Of a stretch of DNA of 64,000 nt, positions 26,290 through 63,573 are shown in pieces. Source of the DNA: Bosea sp. PAMC 26642 (lineage in GTDB: Bacteria; Pseudomonadota; Alphaproteobacteria; Rhizobiales; Beijerinckiaceae); the NCBI RefSeq assembly GCF_001562255.1, contig NZ_CP014301.1, positions 1,798,001 through 1,862,000 on the forward strand, in the 5' to 3' direction. The translations under genes were made by a program, and so were the position numbers. The notes beneath the pieces were generated by a model. That model was not told the origin of the DNA. It made no database searches and saw only the letters and a program-made list of their open reading frames with translations. The stretch's first letter is position 1; every line of letters starts with the position of its first letter.

Positions 26290-26359
26290 CGTCTAGTCTC
26301 CGTAAAATCTTCAAAGCTGCGAACCGGCGGGGCATCGGGCCCTGCCGATCAGGCAGAAC

Positions 26360-26731
26360 TCACTTCGGACGCTTGGCGCCGTACTTCGAACGACGCTGCT
26401 TGCGGTTCTTGACGCCCTGGGTGTCGAGCACGCCGCGCAGGATGTGGTAGCGCACGCCGGGCAAATCCTTGACGCGGCCGCCGCGGATCATGACGACGGA
26501 GTGTTCCTGAAGGTTGTGGCCTTCACCGGGAATGTATCCGATCACCTCGAAGCCGTTGGTCAGGCGCACCTTGGCGACCTTACGCAGAGCGGAGTTCGGC
26601 TTCTTCGGCGTCGTCGTATAGACGCGCGTGCAGACGCCGCGCTTCTGCGGGCAGGACTCGAGCGCCGGAGCGGTGTTGCGCGCCTTGACGGGCGAACGCG
26701 GCTTGCGAATGAGCTGGCTGATTGTCGGCAT
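26360..26731 (-). CDS. rpsL: 30S ribosomal protein S12
   Basis: A 123-residue S12 at the decoding centre. The segments [16 protein letters not shown] and [14 protein letters not shown] contain the lysines corresponding to the classical streptomycin-resistance positions, here in wild-type form. It heads the str operon. The upstream 345 bases should carry its promoter. Confidence 0.98.
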
Positions 26732-27076
26732 TCTGGCCTCTCGCTCCCACTGAGCGTTTGGAAATCGCTAAATCTTTGCCCAGACCAACCAAAGCCATGA
26801 CACAAACGAAGCCGCGCCATCGGCTCCCGGCAGGGAAACCTCAGGCGCGTTCGCCAGCAGAGGAACACGGATCGCTCCGCGTTCATGCATCTTGCCATGT
26901 CGTCAATCGACGCTGGAATTCCGGTGGAGTTTCGGCCGCGAAATTCGCCAGCAACAAAGGCTAAGGCGACATACGTGTCCGACAACCACCGATAGTGGCG
27001 CGCTTATGACTCGGGCGGAGATTCGCGTCAACCCCGAATATGCAGTGCCGCAAGGCGGGACCGCCGGGCCGGCGCC
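26732..27076 (-). promoter_or_regulatory. Upstream region of the str operon (rpsL), promoter not resolved
   Basis: A 345-base stretch without a supported gene, between the ABC exporter stop and the rpsL start. It must carry the promoter of the long rpsL-to-secY transcription unit and the end of the exporter transcript. No T-tailed hairpin and no confident -35/-10 pair was identified by eye. Confidence 0.4.
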
Positions 27077-29125
27077 TCAATCCTCGTCCTCTTCGGCGCT
27101 CTCGCGCATCTGATCGGTCCAGAGGCGCCGGTAGAGACCGCCCCGCTTCTTCAGCAGTTCGGAATGGGTTCCGCGCTGGACGAGGCGCCCGGCATCGAGA
27201 ACGACGATTTCGTCCATGTCGATAACCGATGTCAGCCGATGCGTCACGAACAGCAGGGTCCGCCCCTTGCCGATCTTCTTCAAGGTGCGGTTGACGGCCG
27301 CCTCAGTCGTCTGGTCGAGCGCCGAGGTCGCCTCGTCGAGCAGCAGGATCGCGGGATCGCGGACCAACGCTCGCGCAATCGCGATGCGCTGGCGCTGCCC
27401 GCCCGACAGCGTATCGCCGCGTTCGCCGACCATGGTCTCATAGCCCTGCGGCTGGGCCGCGATGAATTTATGGATTTCGGCTTGCCTGGCCGCTGCCTCG
27501 ACCTGCGCGTCGCTCGCATCAAGCGACCCTAGCCGGATGTTCTCGCGAAACGTCGTGTTGAACAGCACGTTCTCCTGGAACACGATCGCCATCTGCGCCC
27601 GCAGGGAATCGCGCGTGACGTCGGCGATGTCGACGCCGTCGATCGTCACCCTGCCCTGCCTCGTATCGTAGAAGCGCAGCAGCAGGCTCAGCAGCGTGCT
27701 CTTGCCCGCCCCGCTCGGCCCCACGATCGCGACGCGGCGCCCCGCCGGAATCACGAGATCGAGCCGGTCGAGCTGCCTGCGCACGCCATCATAGGAAAAG
27801 CTGACCCGCTCGAAGGCGATCTGCGTCGTGATGCGCGGCGCCTCGACGGCATCGGGCTTGTCGGAGACCCTGATCGGCTCGTCCAGGATCTGGTTCATGT
27901 GCCGGACGGCTCCCGCGGCGTCGATGACCACGGGGATGTACTGGGTCAGGTGGTTCAGGTTGTAGGTGATCTCCCAGAACACGCTCTCGAACGCGACGAA
28001 GGTGCCGATCGTGATCACGTCGTTGAAGGTCAGATAGGCGCCGACCGCCAGCACGAGCAGATGCAGCCACAGCACCGCGATCGTGATCGAGCGTTCGACG
28101 ATGGTGTTGAGGAAGGTCGAGCGCTGCTGGGCCGCCCGCAGCATCTGGTTGCGCTGGGTGAACCAGCGCAGCGACAGGCCCTGCAGTCCAAATGCCTTGA
28201 CGACCGCCTGGGCGCCGACATTCTCCTGCACCACCCCGAGCTCGCCGGCCTGCGCCCGCTTCACCTCGTAGCTTGCCAGAACCGCTCGCGGCGTCACGAT
28301 CCGCGGCACGATCAGCACGAGCGGAAAGATCAGAAGCGCCAGCAGGCCGAGTTGCGGGTTCAGCACCATCAACAGGACGATGCCGGCGATCAGTTCCAGA
28401 AGCGGCAGCACGCCCCAATTGGCGAGGTTGATGACGGCTTCCTCATAGGTCGTCATGTCGTTAGAGAAACGCGACAGAACCTCGCCCTTGCGGCTCCTGT
28501 TGTAGAAGCTCACCGGCAGTTTCTGGATATGGGCGAAAAGGTTCCGGCGAACGTCCGCGGCTATGGCCGAGGTCACTTTCGCATCCTGCCATTCGTACCA
28601 GATCGCGACGACCGAGGTGACGAGGCCAGCGACGCCGAGGACGGCGAGGACGAGAAGCAGCTGCGAGTAGTTCTTCTCCTCGAAGACCTCGTCGATCAGG
28701 TATTTGAGCACGAGCGGCATCGAGACGTTGAACGCCATCTCGACCAGCAGGCCGAGCCCGACCAGTACGATGCCGGAGCGATGGGCCGATAGATAAGGCC
28801 TCGTGAAGGCGAAGACGCTGCTGAAGGCCCCTGCCGCTTCGGCGGCAGAGTAGTTCACCGGGCCGTCATGGTCCTCGTCGTCATCGATATCGTCTTCCTC
28901 ATCATCCTCGTCGTCATCGTCGTCATCGTCGACTTCGACTCGCGACTGCGAAGACTTCGCCGGCGCAGCGACGGGGAGCACGCTCTTGCGTTCCACGGGG
29001 ACAGCAGCTGTGACGGACGGGACATCGATCGCTGCCGCAGAGGTGGTGGCCCGGCCCGGGTCACTGGCATCGTCGGCCGCTGGAGGCTGCTTGTCGTCAC
29101 TCACGCGATCTTCGGCAGAACGCAT
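27077..29125 (-). CDS. ABC exporter half-transporter (membrane domain-ATPase) with acidic N-terminal tract
   Basis: A 682-residue ABC transporter of the exporter type (MsbA/HlyB-like fold), expected to homodimerise in the inner membrane. Residues 66-87 are an extraordinary run of 20 Asp/Glu in 22 positions. A six-helix membrane domain follows at about 100-410, then an ATPase domain with GPSGAGKST near 470, LSGGQRQR near 570 and [13 protein letters not shown] near 595. The start at 29125 is the only good ATG before the tract. It lies 63 bases downstream of the FAD/methyltransferase gene on the same strand and is probably co-transcribed. The substrate is unknown; pairing with a modifying enzyme suggests export of a tailored small molecule or lipid. 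Confidence 0.9.
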   Translation of the reverse strand: MRSAEDRVSDDKQPPAADDASDPGRATTSAAAIDVPSVTAAVPVERKSVLPVAAPAKSSQSRVEVDDDDDDDEDDEEDDIDDDEDHDGPVNYSAAEAAGAFSSVFAFTRPYLSAHRSGIVLVGLGLLVEMAFNVSMPLVLKYLIDEVFEEKNYSQLLLVLAVLGVAGLVTSVVAIWYEWQDAKVTSAIAADVRRNLFAHIQKLPVSFYNRSRKGEVLSRFSNDMTTYEEAVINLANWGVLPLLELIAGIVLLMVLNPQLGLLALLIFPLVLIVPRIVTPRAVLASYEVKRAQAGELGVVQENVGAQAVVKAFGLQGLSLRWFTQRNQMLRAAQQRSTFLNTIVERSITIAVLWLHLLVLAVGAYLTFNDVITIGTFVAFESVFWEITYNLNHLTQYIPVVIDAAGAVRHMNQILDEPIRVSDKPDAVEAPRITTQIAFERVSFSYDGVRRQLDRLDLVIPAGRRVAIVGPSGAGKSTLLSLLLRFYDTRQGRVTIDGVDIADVTRDSLRAQMAIVFQENVLFNTTFRENIRLGSLDASDAQVEAAARQAEIHKFIAAQPQGYETMVGERGDTLSGGQRQRIAIARALVRDPAILLLDEATSALDQTTEAAVNRTLKKIGKGRTLLFVTHRLTSVIDMDEIVVLDAGRLVQRGTHSELLKKRGGLYRRLWTDQMRESAEEDED
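28867..28940. repeat. Asp/Glu-coding trinucleotide-like tract inside the ABC exporter gene
   Basis: The plus-strand sequence is an irregular series of 'gtc', 'atc' and 'ctc' triplets, encoding Asp and Glu on the minus strand. The repeats are imperfect (both GAC and GAT, with some GAG and GAA), which limits slippage but still makes this a likely length-variable site between strains. Confidence 0.75.
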
Positions 29126-29188
29126 TCAAGCGGCCACCGCCCTCTATCTAGATGATGTGTTCGGCGACTGGATGATGATCGGCGGACA

Positions 29189-31285
29189 TCAGTCGCCGCG
29201 GGTCGGCTTCAGCCGGTCGAAGAAGCAGTAGCGCAGGCTTTCCGCATCTTCGTACCACTGACCCGGCCCTTTGCCTGCCGCGAGCGTGCGTTGCCAGGCG
29301 GCATCCAGCCGGTCGCGCTGCTCAAGCGCCACATCGAAATCCTCGTCGAAGAAAAGCTCCGACCACTCCCACCATGTCGCCAGCTTCTTCACCCCGCGCA
29401 GAAGATCGTACCTGTCGCAGACCTGGGAGGTGAGATCGCTGGTCACCGAGCCGAAATAGACTCCTCGCCTGCATACGCGATGCAGTTCGGAGATCGCCGC
29501 CTTGACGCGGCGTGGGCTGAGATGGCTGAGGCAGGTCTCGTAGACGACGTCGAAGGAGCGCGTTTTGAACGGCAAGTCCGCTACCGTGCCGCAGCGGTTG
29601 TACTTGCGCAGATGCGCCGGCGTCTTCGCGTGGATGTAGCGGTTCTTCTCGATTCCCCAGGCGTCGATGCCGAGATCGCGCAACGCTCCGACGAGTTCTC
29701 CGGACGCCGAGCCCGCCACGAGCAGCCGATATGCCGGCCCCGTTTCCCACACCAGCTCGATCATGTCGCGGATGTAGAGGGGGTCGCTGAACCGCGACCA
29801 GACCTCTGCATAGGGGCCGGCACCGCGATAGAGGTCGAAATAGCTGCGGTCGATACGGGGGCTAGGCTTTGGTACGACGACCGGATCTGGGCCGTTGGCA
29901 GCAGCAGCCCGGGCGAGCCCGGTGTCGTAGCGCCGCTTCATCAACTCGGTCAGGAGGAGATCGGTCGCAATATCGGAAGAATCGAGCAGACCGTTCAGGG
30001 TCGAGTCGAACAGATAGTCGCCGACGACCAGAAGCCCCGGATGCTCCTTGGGCTCGGGGCGATGGTTGGTCAGGACATCGCGAACCGGCATTCCACCGGG
30101 GATCGCGTTCACCGATGCGAGCCAGCGGTGAACCTTGCCCTCGATGAAATGCGGATGGGGGTCTCCGATCGATGCGGGCACCGATTTCAGAACCGTCCTG
30201 ATCAGTTCGTCATCGCTGAGATTGGCAAAGGACAGCGCATCGACGCCGGCGATCAGCCAGTTCAGGACGCCATTGCGTCCGACATCGTGACGCGAGCCTT
30301 CGATATAGACGCAGCAGCCTCCGAAGCTCTCGGACATGAACCACGAGCCCTCCACCTTTCCCTCCCAGAAAGGCCGATCGAAGAGCGCGGCGACCCGCAG
30401 ATAATGGGCGGGGCGGTCGAAATGGGCGATGTGCCGGGACATGCTGCGCCTCAGGACTTCGCTGTCCCAGGCGACGGTGCCGAGCCAGTTGTGCGGAAGG
30501 CACATCACCACGAGATCGAACTCTCGGCTCTCCGGACCCTTGCCGTTCAGCATACCGAGGCGATAGCGCCCCTCTTCCGTCTTGCCGACGTTCAGGACCC
30601 TGTGGTTGAGCTGGATATCGGCATCGATGGCGGCGCTCAGCCCTTCGATGATCTGCTCGTTGCCGTTCTGGACCGAATAGACCTCGATATAGCCGTCAAC
30701 ATCCATCAGATAGTTCTTCAGCGCGTTGAGGCCATTCGAGACATGCCCCTCGGACGCGATGTCGGATCGGGCCATGACTTGCAGGAAACGGCGCGCCTTC
30801 GCGTCGGCCACCTCGCGATCAAGCACCTCTTCGGCGCTGATGAAGGCCCAGGGGTGACGGTTGTCCTGCTTGCCCGCTCCCTGATAGTAGGCGGCCGGAG
30901 ACATGCTGTCGGCGCAGGTCTTGCGGAACGCGACGATCGCATCGGCGGTTGCGGTGCCATAGCGTGTCCGCATCCCATCGACGCCCAAGACCACCTCGCC
31001 GTCCAGCACGACCGCTTCGGAATCCATCGCTGTGGTCTGAAAGCCCAGTTCCTGCACCAGTTCGCGCAAGGGGTCGTGGCCCAGCATCGAATAGCCGTAG
31101 ATTTCAGCGACACCCGCCTCGTACATCGCCGGAGTACTGTCAAATTTCCGCGTCAGGACCTTTCCGCCAAGCCGCTCTGACGCCTCGAAAATCGTAACCC
31201 GGCACATTTCGCCGATTTTCTTCTTGATATGCCACGCAGTCATCAAGCCGCCGGGCCCACCGCCGACGATCGCTAGTTCCAACAT
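29189..31285 (-). CDS. Fusion protein: FAD-dependent amine-oxidase-like domain + SAM-dependent methyltransferase
   Basis: A 698-residue two-domain protein. The N-terminal part is a flavoprotein of the amine oxidase/phytoene-desaturase-like class: the dinucleotide motif GGGPGG is at residues 8-13, the ribose-binding Glu34 sits in IFEASERLGGKV, and a C-terminal FAD motif VVGDYLFDSTLNGLLDSSD lies near 415-440. After a linker (about 455-490) comes a class I methyltransferase, with motif I LLVAGSASGELVGAL near 517-530, an acidic GIEKN strand end, and a LPFKTRSFDVVYE motif near 575. Both active-site regions look complete. It is followed 63 bases later by an ABC exporter. The start at 31285 has only weak ribosome-binding sequence. 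Its substrate is not recognisable; a biosynthetic role is an inference. Confidence 0.85.
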   Translation of the reverse strand: MLELAIVGGGPGGLMTAWHIKKKIGEMCRVTIFEASERLGGKVLTRKFDSTPAMYEAGVAEIYGYSMLGHDPLRELVQELGFQTTAMDSEAVVLDGEVVLGVDGMRTRYGTATADAIVAFRKTCADSMSPAAYYQGAGKQDNRHPWAFISAEEVLDREVADAKARRFLQVMARSDIASEGHVSNGLNALKNYLMDVDGYIEVYSVQNGNEQIIEGLSAAIDADIQLNHRVLNVGKTEEGRYRLGMLNGKGPESREFDLVVMCLPHNWLGTVAWDSEVLRRSMSRHIAHFDRPAHYLRVAALFDRPFWEGKVEGSWFMSESFGGCCVYIEGSRHDVGRNGVLNWLIAGVDALSFANLSDDELIRTVLKSVPASIGDPHPHFIEGKVHRWLASVNAIPGGMPVRDVLTNHRPEPKEHPGLLVVGDYLFDSTLNGLLDSSDIATDLLLTELMKRRYDTGLARAAAANGPDPVVVPKPSPRIDRSYFDLYRGAGPYAEVWSRFSDPLYIRDMIELVWETGPAYRLLVAGSASGELVGALRDLGIDAWGIEKNRYIHAKTPAHLRKYNRCGTVADLPFKTRSFDVVYETCLSHLSPRRVKAAISELHRVCRRGVYFGSVTSDLTSQVCDRYDLLRGVKKLATWWEWSELFFDEDFDVALEQRDRLDAAWQRTLAAGKGPGQWYEDAESLRYCFFDRLKPTRGD

Positions 31286-31450
31286 CGAAAACTACGCCAG
31301 TTCCTGTTACGATATGGCGCATGATGACGTACTCCGGCTCCAAAAGCGACCCGAAAATGCCTTAATTGACGGTCGTTCCGTATGACCGTCCTGGACGAGC
31401 GGGGAAGACGCGATATCGTCGGCCGCACCTCAGCGGATTGGGTCCAACAT

Positions 31451-31477
31451 GAAAAAGGCCGCCCGAAGGCGGCCTTG
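31451..31477 (-). terminator. Intrinsic terminator of the rpoBC transcript
   Basis: On the minus strand AAGGCCGCC-TTCG-GGCGGCCTT is followed by TTT, a classical UUCG-capped stem with a T-tail. It begins about 45 bases after the rpoC stop codon, so the FAD/methyltransferase gene downstream needs its own promoter, in the remaining ~165 bases. Confidence 0.92.
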
Positions 31478-31521
31478 ATCAGGACGATAGGGTTGGGAGA
31501 CGCGCAGAAAGCGCGTCCCGA

Positions 31522-35730
<4,209 letters not shown>

Positions 35731-61848: not shown

Positions 61849-63573
61849 TTAGCCGGCATATCGATGCCGGAGATGAATGTTGCGGGCCCGCGGATCGGGG
61901 CGAGGAATAGCCGAGAGCAGCGCCTGCGTGTAGGGGTGCGTCGGCGCATCGCAGACCTGTTCGGCTGACCCCGTCTCAACCACCTTGCCGCGATACATCA
62001 CCGCCACCCTGTCGCACATGTAGCGGATGACGCCGATATCGTGGCTGATGAAGACATAGGACAGGCCGAGCTTGTCCTGCAGGTTCATCATCAGGTCGAG
62101 CACGTGCGAACGGACGGACACGTCCAGCGCCGAGGTCGCCTCGTCGGCGACGATGATGCGCGGGTTGAGCGAGATCGCCCGCGCGATGCCGATGCGCTGA
62201 CGCTGGCCGCCGGAGAAGGCGTGCGGATAACGCTCCCGCCAGGACGGCTCGAGCCCGACCTGGCTGAGGAGGTCGGCCACGCGGTCGTCGAGTTCCTTGC
62301 CCTTGGCGATGCCGTTGACCAGGAGCGGCTCGCCGACGATCTGGGCCACCGTCATGCGCGGGTTGAGCGACCCGACCGGATCCTGGAAGATCATGCGGAT
62401 CTCGCGCCTGCAGGCCTTCAGCGTCTGCGCATCGGCCTTGAGCAGATCGACGACACTGCCATCGGGGCGGCGGTAGTCTATGGCCCCGCCTTGCGGCTCG
62501 TAGACCCGCAGCAGGCAGCGCCCCATCGTCGTCTTGCCCGAGCCGGACTCGCCGACGATGCCGAGCGTCTCGCCCGGCCTGACCACCAGCGAGACGTCGT
62601 CCACGGCCTTCACCGGCGCCTTGGGGGAGCCGAAATACATCTGCAGGTTCTTCACCTCCAGGACGGGCGGCGCATCCTCCGGGATCGGCGGCCGACGCAG
62701 GCGGATCTCCGCCTTCTGCTCCAGCTTCAGCACGGAGCCGATCAACATGCGCGTATAGTCGTCCTTAGGCGCATGGAAGATCGTATCGACCGGGCCGCTC
62801 TCCTTGACCTTGCCGTAGTGCATCACGAGCACCTCGTCGGCGATCTCGGCCACCACGCCCATGTCGTGGGTGATGAACATCACAGCCATGCCGTGCTGCG
62901 TCTGCAGCCGCTTGATCAGGTCGAGGATCTCGGCCTGCGTCGTGACGTCGAGCGCGGTCGTCGGCTCGTCGGCGATCAGGAGCGAGGGATTGCAGGCCAG
63001 CGACATGGCGATCATGACGCGCTGGCGCATCCCGCCGGAGAACTCGAAGGTGTAGCGATCGACCGCGGCGTCCGGCTTGGGGATCTCGACCTGGGTGAGC
63101 AACTCGACGCAGCGCGCCCGGGCGTCCTTCTTGCTCATCTTCAGATGCAGCCGCAGCACCTCCATGATCTGGTCGCCGACCGTATGGACCGGCGACAGTG
63201 ACGACATCGGCTCCTGGAAGATCATCGCGATCTCGCGTCCGCGCACGCTGCGGATCTCGCGGCCGCGCGGGTTCAGCTTGGCCAGATCGACCGAGGAGCC
63301 GTCGAGCCGGTTGAGCAGGATCGAGCCGGAGACGATGCGGCCAGGCGCATCGACGATCTGCAGGATCGAGCGCGCGGTGACGCTCTTGCCCGAGCCGCTT
63401 TCGCCGACGATGCACAGGGTCTTGCCGCGATGGAGCGTGAACGAGACGCCATCGACGGCCTTGACCACGCCGTTGCGCACGGGGAAGTGCGTGACGAGGT
63501 CGCGGACCTCGAGGATGGGTTGGGACGGCGCGGCGCGCTGTTCCAGGCGGGGCGCGAGATCGGTGACATTCAT
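61849..63573 (-). CDS. Dipeptide/oligopeptide-type ABC importer, fused double ATPase (DppD-DppF-like)
   Basis: A 574-residue protein containing two complete ATPase halves. The first has GESGSGKS at 57-64 and SGGMRQR near 180. The second has GESGSGKTT near 339, SGGQRQR and ADEATSALD. Each half ends in the oligopeptide-transporter C-terminal segment ([32 protein letters not shown]). Such transporters import peptides, opines, glycosides or sugar acids. The ATG overlaps the permease stop (ATGA). Adjacency to two sugar-acid dehydratases suggests a sugar-acid-derived substrate rather than a peptide. Confidence 0.94.

Follow-up and report, generated by a model that had tools for sequence, protein, structure and literature searches.

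A conserved gene pair encoding a fused flavin oxidase/methyltransferase and an ABC exporter, a candidate tailoring-and-export unit between rpoC and rpsL

In the 64,000-nucleotide stretch of Bosea sp. PAMC 26642 analyzed here (contig NZ_CP014301.1, positions 1,798,001–1,862,000; the window), rpoC and rpsL flank two genes that encode a fused flavin oxidase/methyltransferase and, downstream of it, an ATP-binding cassette (ABC) half-exporter (Table 1). Judged from its conservation across genomes, the exporter is a real partner of the fused enzyme, and the pair is a widely conserved, uncharacterised combination of known domains. Our best reading, which we hold tentatively, is a two-gene tailoring-and-export unit with a hydrophobic, perhaps lipid-like product. 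A sequence-only reading of the same DNA had described one polypeptide joining an amine-oxidase-like flavoprotein to a C-terminal class I methyltransferase, with an ABC half-exporter carrying an acidic tract 63 bases downstream, both between rpoC and rpsL; the open reading frames (ORFs), the Pfam domains and the amino-acid composition bear this description out.

Table 1 Features of the rpoC–rpsL region (window coordinates).
Feature	Position	Strand	Basis
Fused flavin oxidase/class I methyltransferase, 698 amino acids (aa)	29189..31285	-	ORF list, Pfam and model
Flavin amine-oxidase domain, residues 12–426	30008..31252	-	Pfam Amino_oxidase (PF01593)
Methyltransferase core, residues 524–610	29456..29716	-	Pfam Methyltransf_11
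ABC half-exporter (682 aa) with ATPase motifs	27077..29125	-	ORF list, Pfam, curated models, motif patterns
Acidic tract of exporter, residues 63–90, 21/28 Asp/Glu	28856..28939	-	Composition count
Stretch missing from the same-genus genome G010	27036..31519	no strand	Comparison with same-genus genomes
Terminator-like hairpin, between rpoC and fusion gene	31455..31476	-	Pattern match
rpoC, flanking context outside the unit	31522..35730	-	
rpsL, flanking context outside the unit	26360..26731	-	

The exporter lies directly after the enzyme in 79 of the 80 loci retrieved from named genomes, which include Bosea, Bradyrhizobium, Tardiphaga and Afipia (65–74% identity); the 80th stops at a contig edge. 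Wherever both flanks are visible (73/73 of these loci, Bosea included), rpoC, enzyme, exporter and rpsL follow in this order on one strand. The conservation of the pair excludes chance. Across 13 whole genomes, the neighboring exporter scored 521–1475 bits in the six having the pair (6/6), against a best exporter match of 302–319 bits in the seven without this neighbor (7/7), namely six same-genus genomes lacking the enzyme and one further genome, G074; exporter presence thus tracked the enzyme in 12/13 genomes, with G074 as the exception. The exporter orthologue was missing in 6/6 tested same-genus genomes without the fusion. The best evidence for the link comes from another genus (g23), in which a 39%-identity enzyme has the exporter alongside in 6/6 matching genomes. 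Five of these were read at length: the exporters are 44–46% identical and keep the acidic N-terminal stretch, the loci lie away from rpoC–rpsL, TRAP-transporter genes stand upstream in 5/5 (by Pfam for one, by eye for the others) and a fabI-like gene, identified by eye, stands downstream in four. The rpoC–rpsL joint, read in two g23 genomes, does not hold the pair. Because the pair recurs at this other chromosomal place, the exporter link does not come solely from a conserved neighborhood. Besides the exporter, no gene was seen conserved beside the enzyme across all lineages read.

These data bear on two explanations that would uncouple the genes. That they are functionally unrelated and travel together only through conservation of the rpoC–rpsL stretch would agree with a spacing that is not fixed at 63 bases but varies from 55 to 352 in the 75 loci counted (up to the nearest start codon, taken as ATG if one is present) and with the existence of two homologues without an exporter; we consider it very unlikely, since the genes stand side by side in 6/6 g23 genomes, away from rpoC–rpsL in those read out, and are jointly missing in 6/6 same-genus genomes tested. 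The other draws on MnmC, a natural and well-known flavin oxidase/methyltransferase fusion that acts on tRNA through an N-terminal methyltransferase and a C-terminal DAO-type oxidase. Like MnmC, the protein described here combines a flavin adenine dinucleotide (FAD) oxidase and an S-adenosylmethionine (SAM)-dependent methyltransferase in one chain, and its gene sits among translation genes, so that it might oxidise and methylate RNA or protein next to an unrelated exporter gene. Compared with MnmC, however, the two domains stand in the opposite order and belong to other families; the DAO family scored only 18.4 bits here, short of its 27.9 cut-off. The 12/13 co-occurrence with the exporter and the loci away from translation genes also speak against an MnmC-like role, which is most improbable.

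The domain assignment of the fused enzyme rests on an Amino_oxidase match (PF01593) with an E-value of 1.2e-26 and 94.5 bits, above the Pfam cut-off of 19.8, and on a Methyltransf_11 match (E 2.8e-8) in the same reading frame. The sequence GGGPGG noted in the sequence-only reading occupies residues 8–13, just upstream of the Pfam oxidase domain. In an alignment of 30 rows, hand-chosen from the broad family, glycines 8, 9, 10 and 13, the GDY motif at 422–424 and Arg297 are invariant, as are G525, G529 and E546 of the methyltransferase core. In these folds, the four glycines would mark the flavin site and G525/G529/E546 the SAM site. Both catalytic halves look intact, as had been suggested, and the protein would be expected to bind FAD and SAM. 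Its chemistry, on the other hand, need not be amine oxidation. Arg297 aligns opposite the lysine of putrescine oxidase, the conserved catalytic-site lysine that flavin amine oxidases place close to the flavin N5, and is arginine in 30/30 family rows; the earlier label "amine oxidase" was therefore overstated.

The oxidase half shares its fold and PF01593 with putrescine oxidase, L-amino-acid oxidase and VioA, but differs from flavin amine oxidases in Arg297 and in forming its own clade: when 15 other amine oxidases, drawn from six genomes, were placed in one tree with them (6/21 loci dropped where the frame-finding motif gave no frame), the 11 fusion-family members grouped together with support of 97/99. 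The protoporphyrinogen oxidase equivalog model TIGR00562 scored 34.8 bits, below its cut-off of 97.85. The full-length model of the protein was confident (predicted local distance difference test, pLDDT, 86; predicted template modeling score, pTM, 0.84), and the methyltransferase half modeled alone was poor (pLDDT 66.8), which together would fit a packing of the two halves against each other. A fold search with this weak half-model (pLDDT 66.8) returned only "class I methyltransferase".

The exporter contains ABC_membrane and ABC_tran domains (Pfam), as expected of a fused membrane/ATPase exporter, and Walker A, Q-loop, signature, Walker B and H-loop patterns are all present. It has the same half-transporter architecture as MsbA and MsbA-related exporters, and its best curated models, TIGR02204 and TIGR02203, are both MsbA-related. 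Unlike MsbA, it scores under both cut-offs (TIGR02204, 425.5 versus 780.4; TIGR02203, the MsbA lipid A flippase, 387.8 versus 602) and carries acidic stretches. At least 10 Asp/Glu within a 20-residue stretch near the N terminus were found in 72 of 75 homologous exporters read, most of which also have an acidic C-terminal tail. MsbA is not known to have acidic tails.

The fusion itself is no peculiarity of this genome: a methyltransferase domain was called in 119 of the best 120 listed homologues (of 2114 found), the exception being P0019 (696 aa), so the same domain order recurs and the two halves are not consistently separate genes. One homologue set comprised 62 of the 120 listed proteins, and the locus set A3 took in the window together with 40 of the 59 locus segments left after removal of redundancy. 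Database sources name the homologues "monoamine oxidase/SAM-dependent methyltransferase" or similar. A profile of divergent oxidases found fusions in Beijerinckiaceae, Rhodopseudomonas and one Candidatus Tectimicrobiota record; its matches in Pyrinomonadaceae records were shorter oxidases for which no methyltransferase domain was called. In a midpoint-rooted tree of 60 hand-chosen rows, fusions fell on both sides of the root, with 15 "stand-alone" oxidase rows, some of them fragments by length or record name, nested among them. The simplest reading of this topology would be that the fusion is old and that the methyltransferase half was later lost several times.

Full-length enzyme matches were found in 4/25 genomes of the window's genus and in 0/16 others; in wider sampling, matches at the set limit numbered 14/199 for the order, 2/190 for the class and 4/200 for the phylum, each count including the window's own genome. 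The Bradyrhizobium-like genus (that of G195; the genus name is our inference, drawn partly from sequence identities) gave matches in 96/98 genomes, none with an internal stop; in G059, G604, G607, G647 and G648 the match is partial or split. In G059 (L108 8019–10078), the fusion gene is split across two frames near residue 347 and the exporter frame is open, through sequencing error or real loss. Nine plasmid records matched, each covering 12–14% of the query, and none covered 80%.

The sequence-only reading had called the rpoC–rpsL joint "normally empty". This holds for genomes without the pair there, as neither gene occurs in any of the 10 such joints read, but not for Bradyrhizobium-type loci: the pair fills the joint in 73/73 loci with both flanks, a count that includes Bosea. 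In five same-genus genomes lacking the pair, the joint measures about 431–2667 bases between tblastn edges; on the rpsL side, similarity to the window picks up again at 27035–27041 in 5/5; in G010 the opposite edge lies at 31520, two bases past rpoC. These near relatives thus show an empty joint. One same-genus genome without the pair, G020 (L132 832–3498), holds about 2.7 kilobases (kb) of other sequence at this position, so the joint may take inserts repeatedly. The module/rpoC distance ratio was 4.9–6.0 in five Bosea-like rows, of which L003 and L109 are the same record, versus 1.5–1.8 in 63 others. This divergence, seemingly too large for rpoC, was considered as a sign of horizontal transfer, and that argument was rejected: between the window and the same carriers, the control genes for a trypsin/PDZ protease (75–76%) and NAPRTase (79–80%) gave identities much like the module's 72–79%. 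Additional ORFs accompany the pair in some records. A convergent ORF of 391–403 aa, with a start that resembles an FAD-monooxygenase by eye, lies between exporter and rpsL in L005, L006, L010, L018 and L055, and one Bosea record (L001 6399–8791) has two ORFs of about 390–410 aa between rpoC and the fusion gene.

Plant enzymes offer a comparison that bears on the lipid idea only. According to PMC3132707, plant cyclopropane synthases carry a flavin oxidase fused ahead of a SAM-dependent enzyme and act on lipids; as in cotton GhCPS and the Sterculia enzyme, a roughly 400-aa N-terminal FAD oxidase precedes the SAM-dependent part in the protein described here, a likeness of architecture only. The earlier claim that no named system has this composition was thus too strong, although the plant proteins use another methyltransferase family: their C-terminal half is a cyclopropane synthase (CMAS, PF02353), here it is Methyltransf_11, and CMAS is absent among the Pfam families listed for the fused enzyme up to E 0.1. 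Separate PF02353 genes exist elsewhere in the window's own genome. The portion of PMC3132707 available mentions no exporter partner for the plant synthase.

In the proposed mechanism, the fused enzyme would bind FAD via its N-terminal half and SAM via its C-terminal half, oxidise or dehydrogenate a hydrophobic precursor, perhaps at a carbon–carbon or carbon–oxygen position and not at a simple amine, and then methylate it; the MsbA-related exporter, as a homodimer, would then carry the product out of the inner leaflet or the cytoplasm. We infer a single, lipid-like substrate for both domains and a homodimeric exporter that transports the product. A more novel version, in which one oxidising and methylating polypeptide performs an undescribed modification of a membrane lipid or isoprenoid and has its own flippase to the outer leaflet or outer membrane, as a core trait of Bradyrhizobium and a cassette gained or lost elsewhere, appears rather doubtful.

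The lipid idea is an analogy, drawn from the domain order of the plant synthase, from oxidases near PF02353 genes and from the MsbA-related exporter. In its favor, the other amine oxidases that come closest on the tree are three encoded no more than about 4 kb from a PF02353 gene; support is weak (89/90), and their placement is unsure because the branch leading to them is very long (2.1). Several observations weigh against a lipid-tailoring and export unit. By structure, the oxidase half has amino-acid and amine oxidases as its neighbors, and no lipid enzymes. Because stand-alone oxidases exist, the methyltransferase is apparently dispensable in some lineages. Moreover, the adjacency of the exporter is not universal: the remotely homologous enzymes of G074 (44%) and of G314 (41%, from another order) lack an adjacent exporter. 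They are followed instead by related proteins of 280–297 aa, 38–39% identical, with a C-terminal hydrophobic segment and no Pfam match (L138 10312–11154 and L103 7169–8062), so the enzyme can, it seems, have an alternative membrane partner. In G113 (45%) the enzyme lies on a 4.7-kb contig whose downstream sequence is too short to judge the exporter.

Two further explanations keep the exporter and change the chemistry. The unit might make and export a small amino-acid- or amine-derived signal or defense metabolite, the Arg-bearing oxidase being active on amino acids or amines and the methyltransferase capping the product. This is unlikely, as the usual lysine is arginine in 30/30 rows, the gene is core to a whole genus, which is unusual for a specialised metabolite, and the exporter is the sole gene conserved alongside in all lineages read. 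Alternatively, the oxidase half could be redox-inactive or only stabilising, leaving in effect a methyltransferase and an exporter. The missing lysine and the poor predicted folding of the methyltransferase half alone would be consistent with this, as would the cotton cyclopropane synthase, which retains about 30% activity after deletion of its oxidase half according to PMC3132707. We regard such inactivity as distinctly unlikely: none of the 30 rows departs from the flavin-site glycines or the GDY motif, and Pyrinomonadaceae records still contain oxidases that have no methyltransferase, which argues that the oxidase half is kept for itself.

No curated full-length family reaches its cut-off for the fused enzyme, only general domain models do. 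None of the three refuting conditions named in the sequence-only reading (two separate, unlinked genes in homologues, a database family with a known pathway, an exporter neighbor that is not conserved) was borne out. Searches of the open-access literature, in which subscription papers are mostly missing, found no description of the pair or its gene tags. In PMC8225791, bll5409 and bll5410 are two RNA polymerase genes; the pair would then correspond to bll5408 and bll5407, tags found in no open-access paper. Similarly, rpa3268 is rpoB in PMC6974649, and the tags RPA3264–3267 were found in no open-access paper. In PMC7290934, rpoC and rpsL serve solely as reference genes. The pair occurs in nearly every sampled genome of an apparently major nitrogen-fixing genus with its product still unassigned; if a modified lipid or signal is indeed made and exported, it would supply a missing piece of the Bradyrhizobium envelope or chemistry.

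Regarding expression, the terminator-like hairpin downstream of rpoC suggests that the pair may have its own transcript, separate from rpoBC; six such hairpins were found across the scanned region versus 2.7 expected. No Rfam family reached its gathering score within 26300–31800, and a sigma-70 promoter scan, uninformative in this bacterial group, gave no match. Elsewhere in the window, positions 61852–63573 encode another, unrelated ABC protein, an ATPase that gives two ABC_tran matches and has a C-terminal region of the oligopeptide type.
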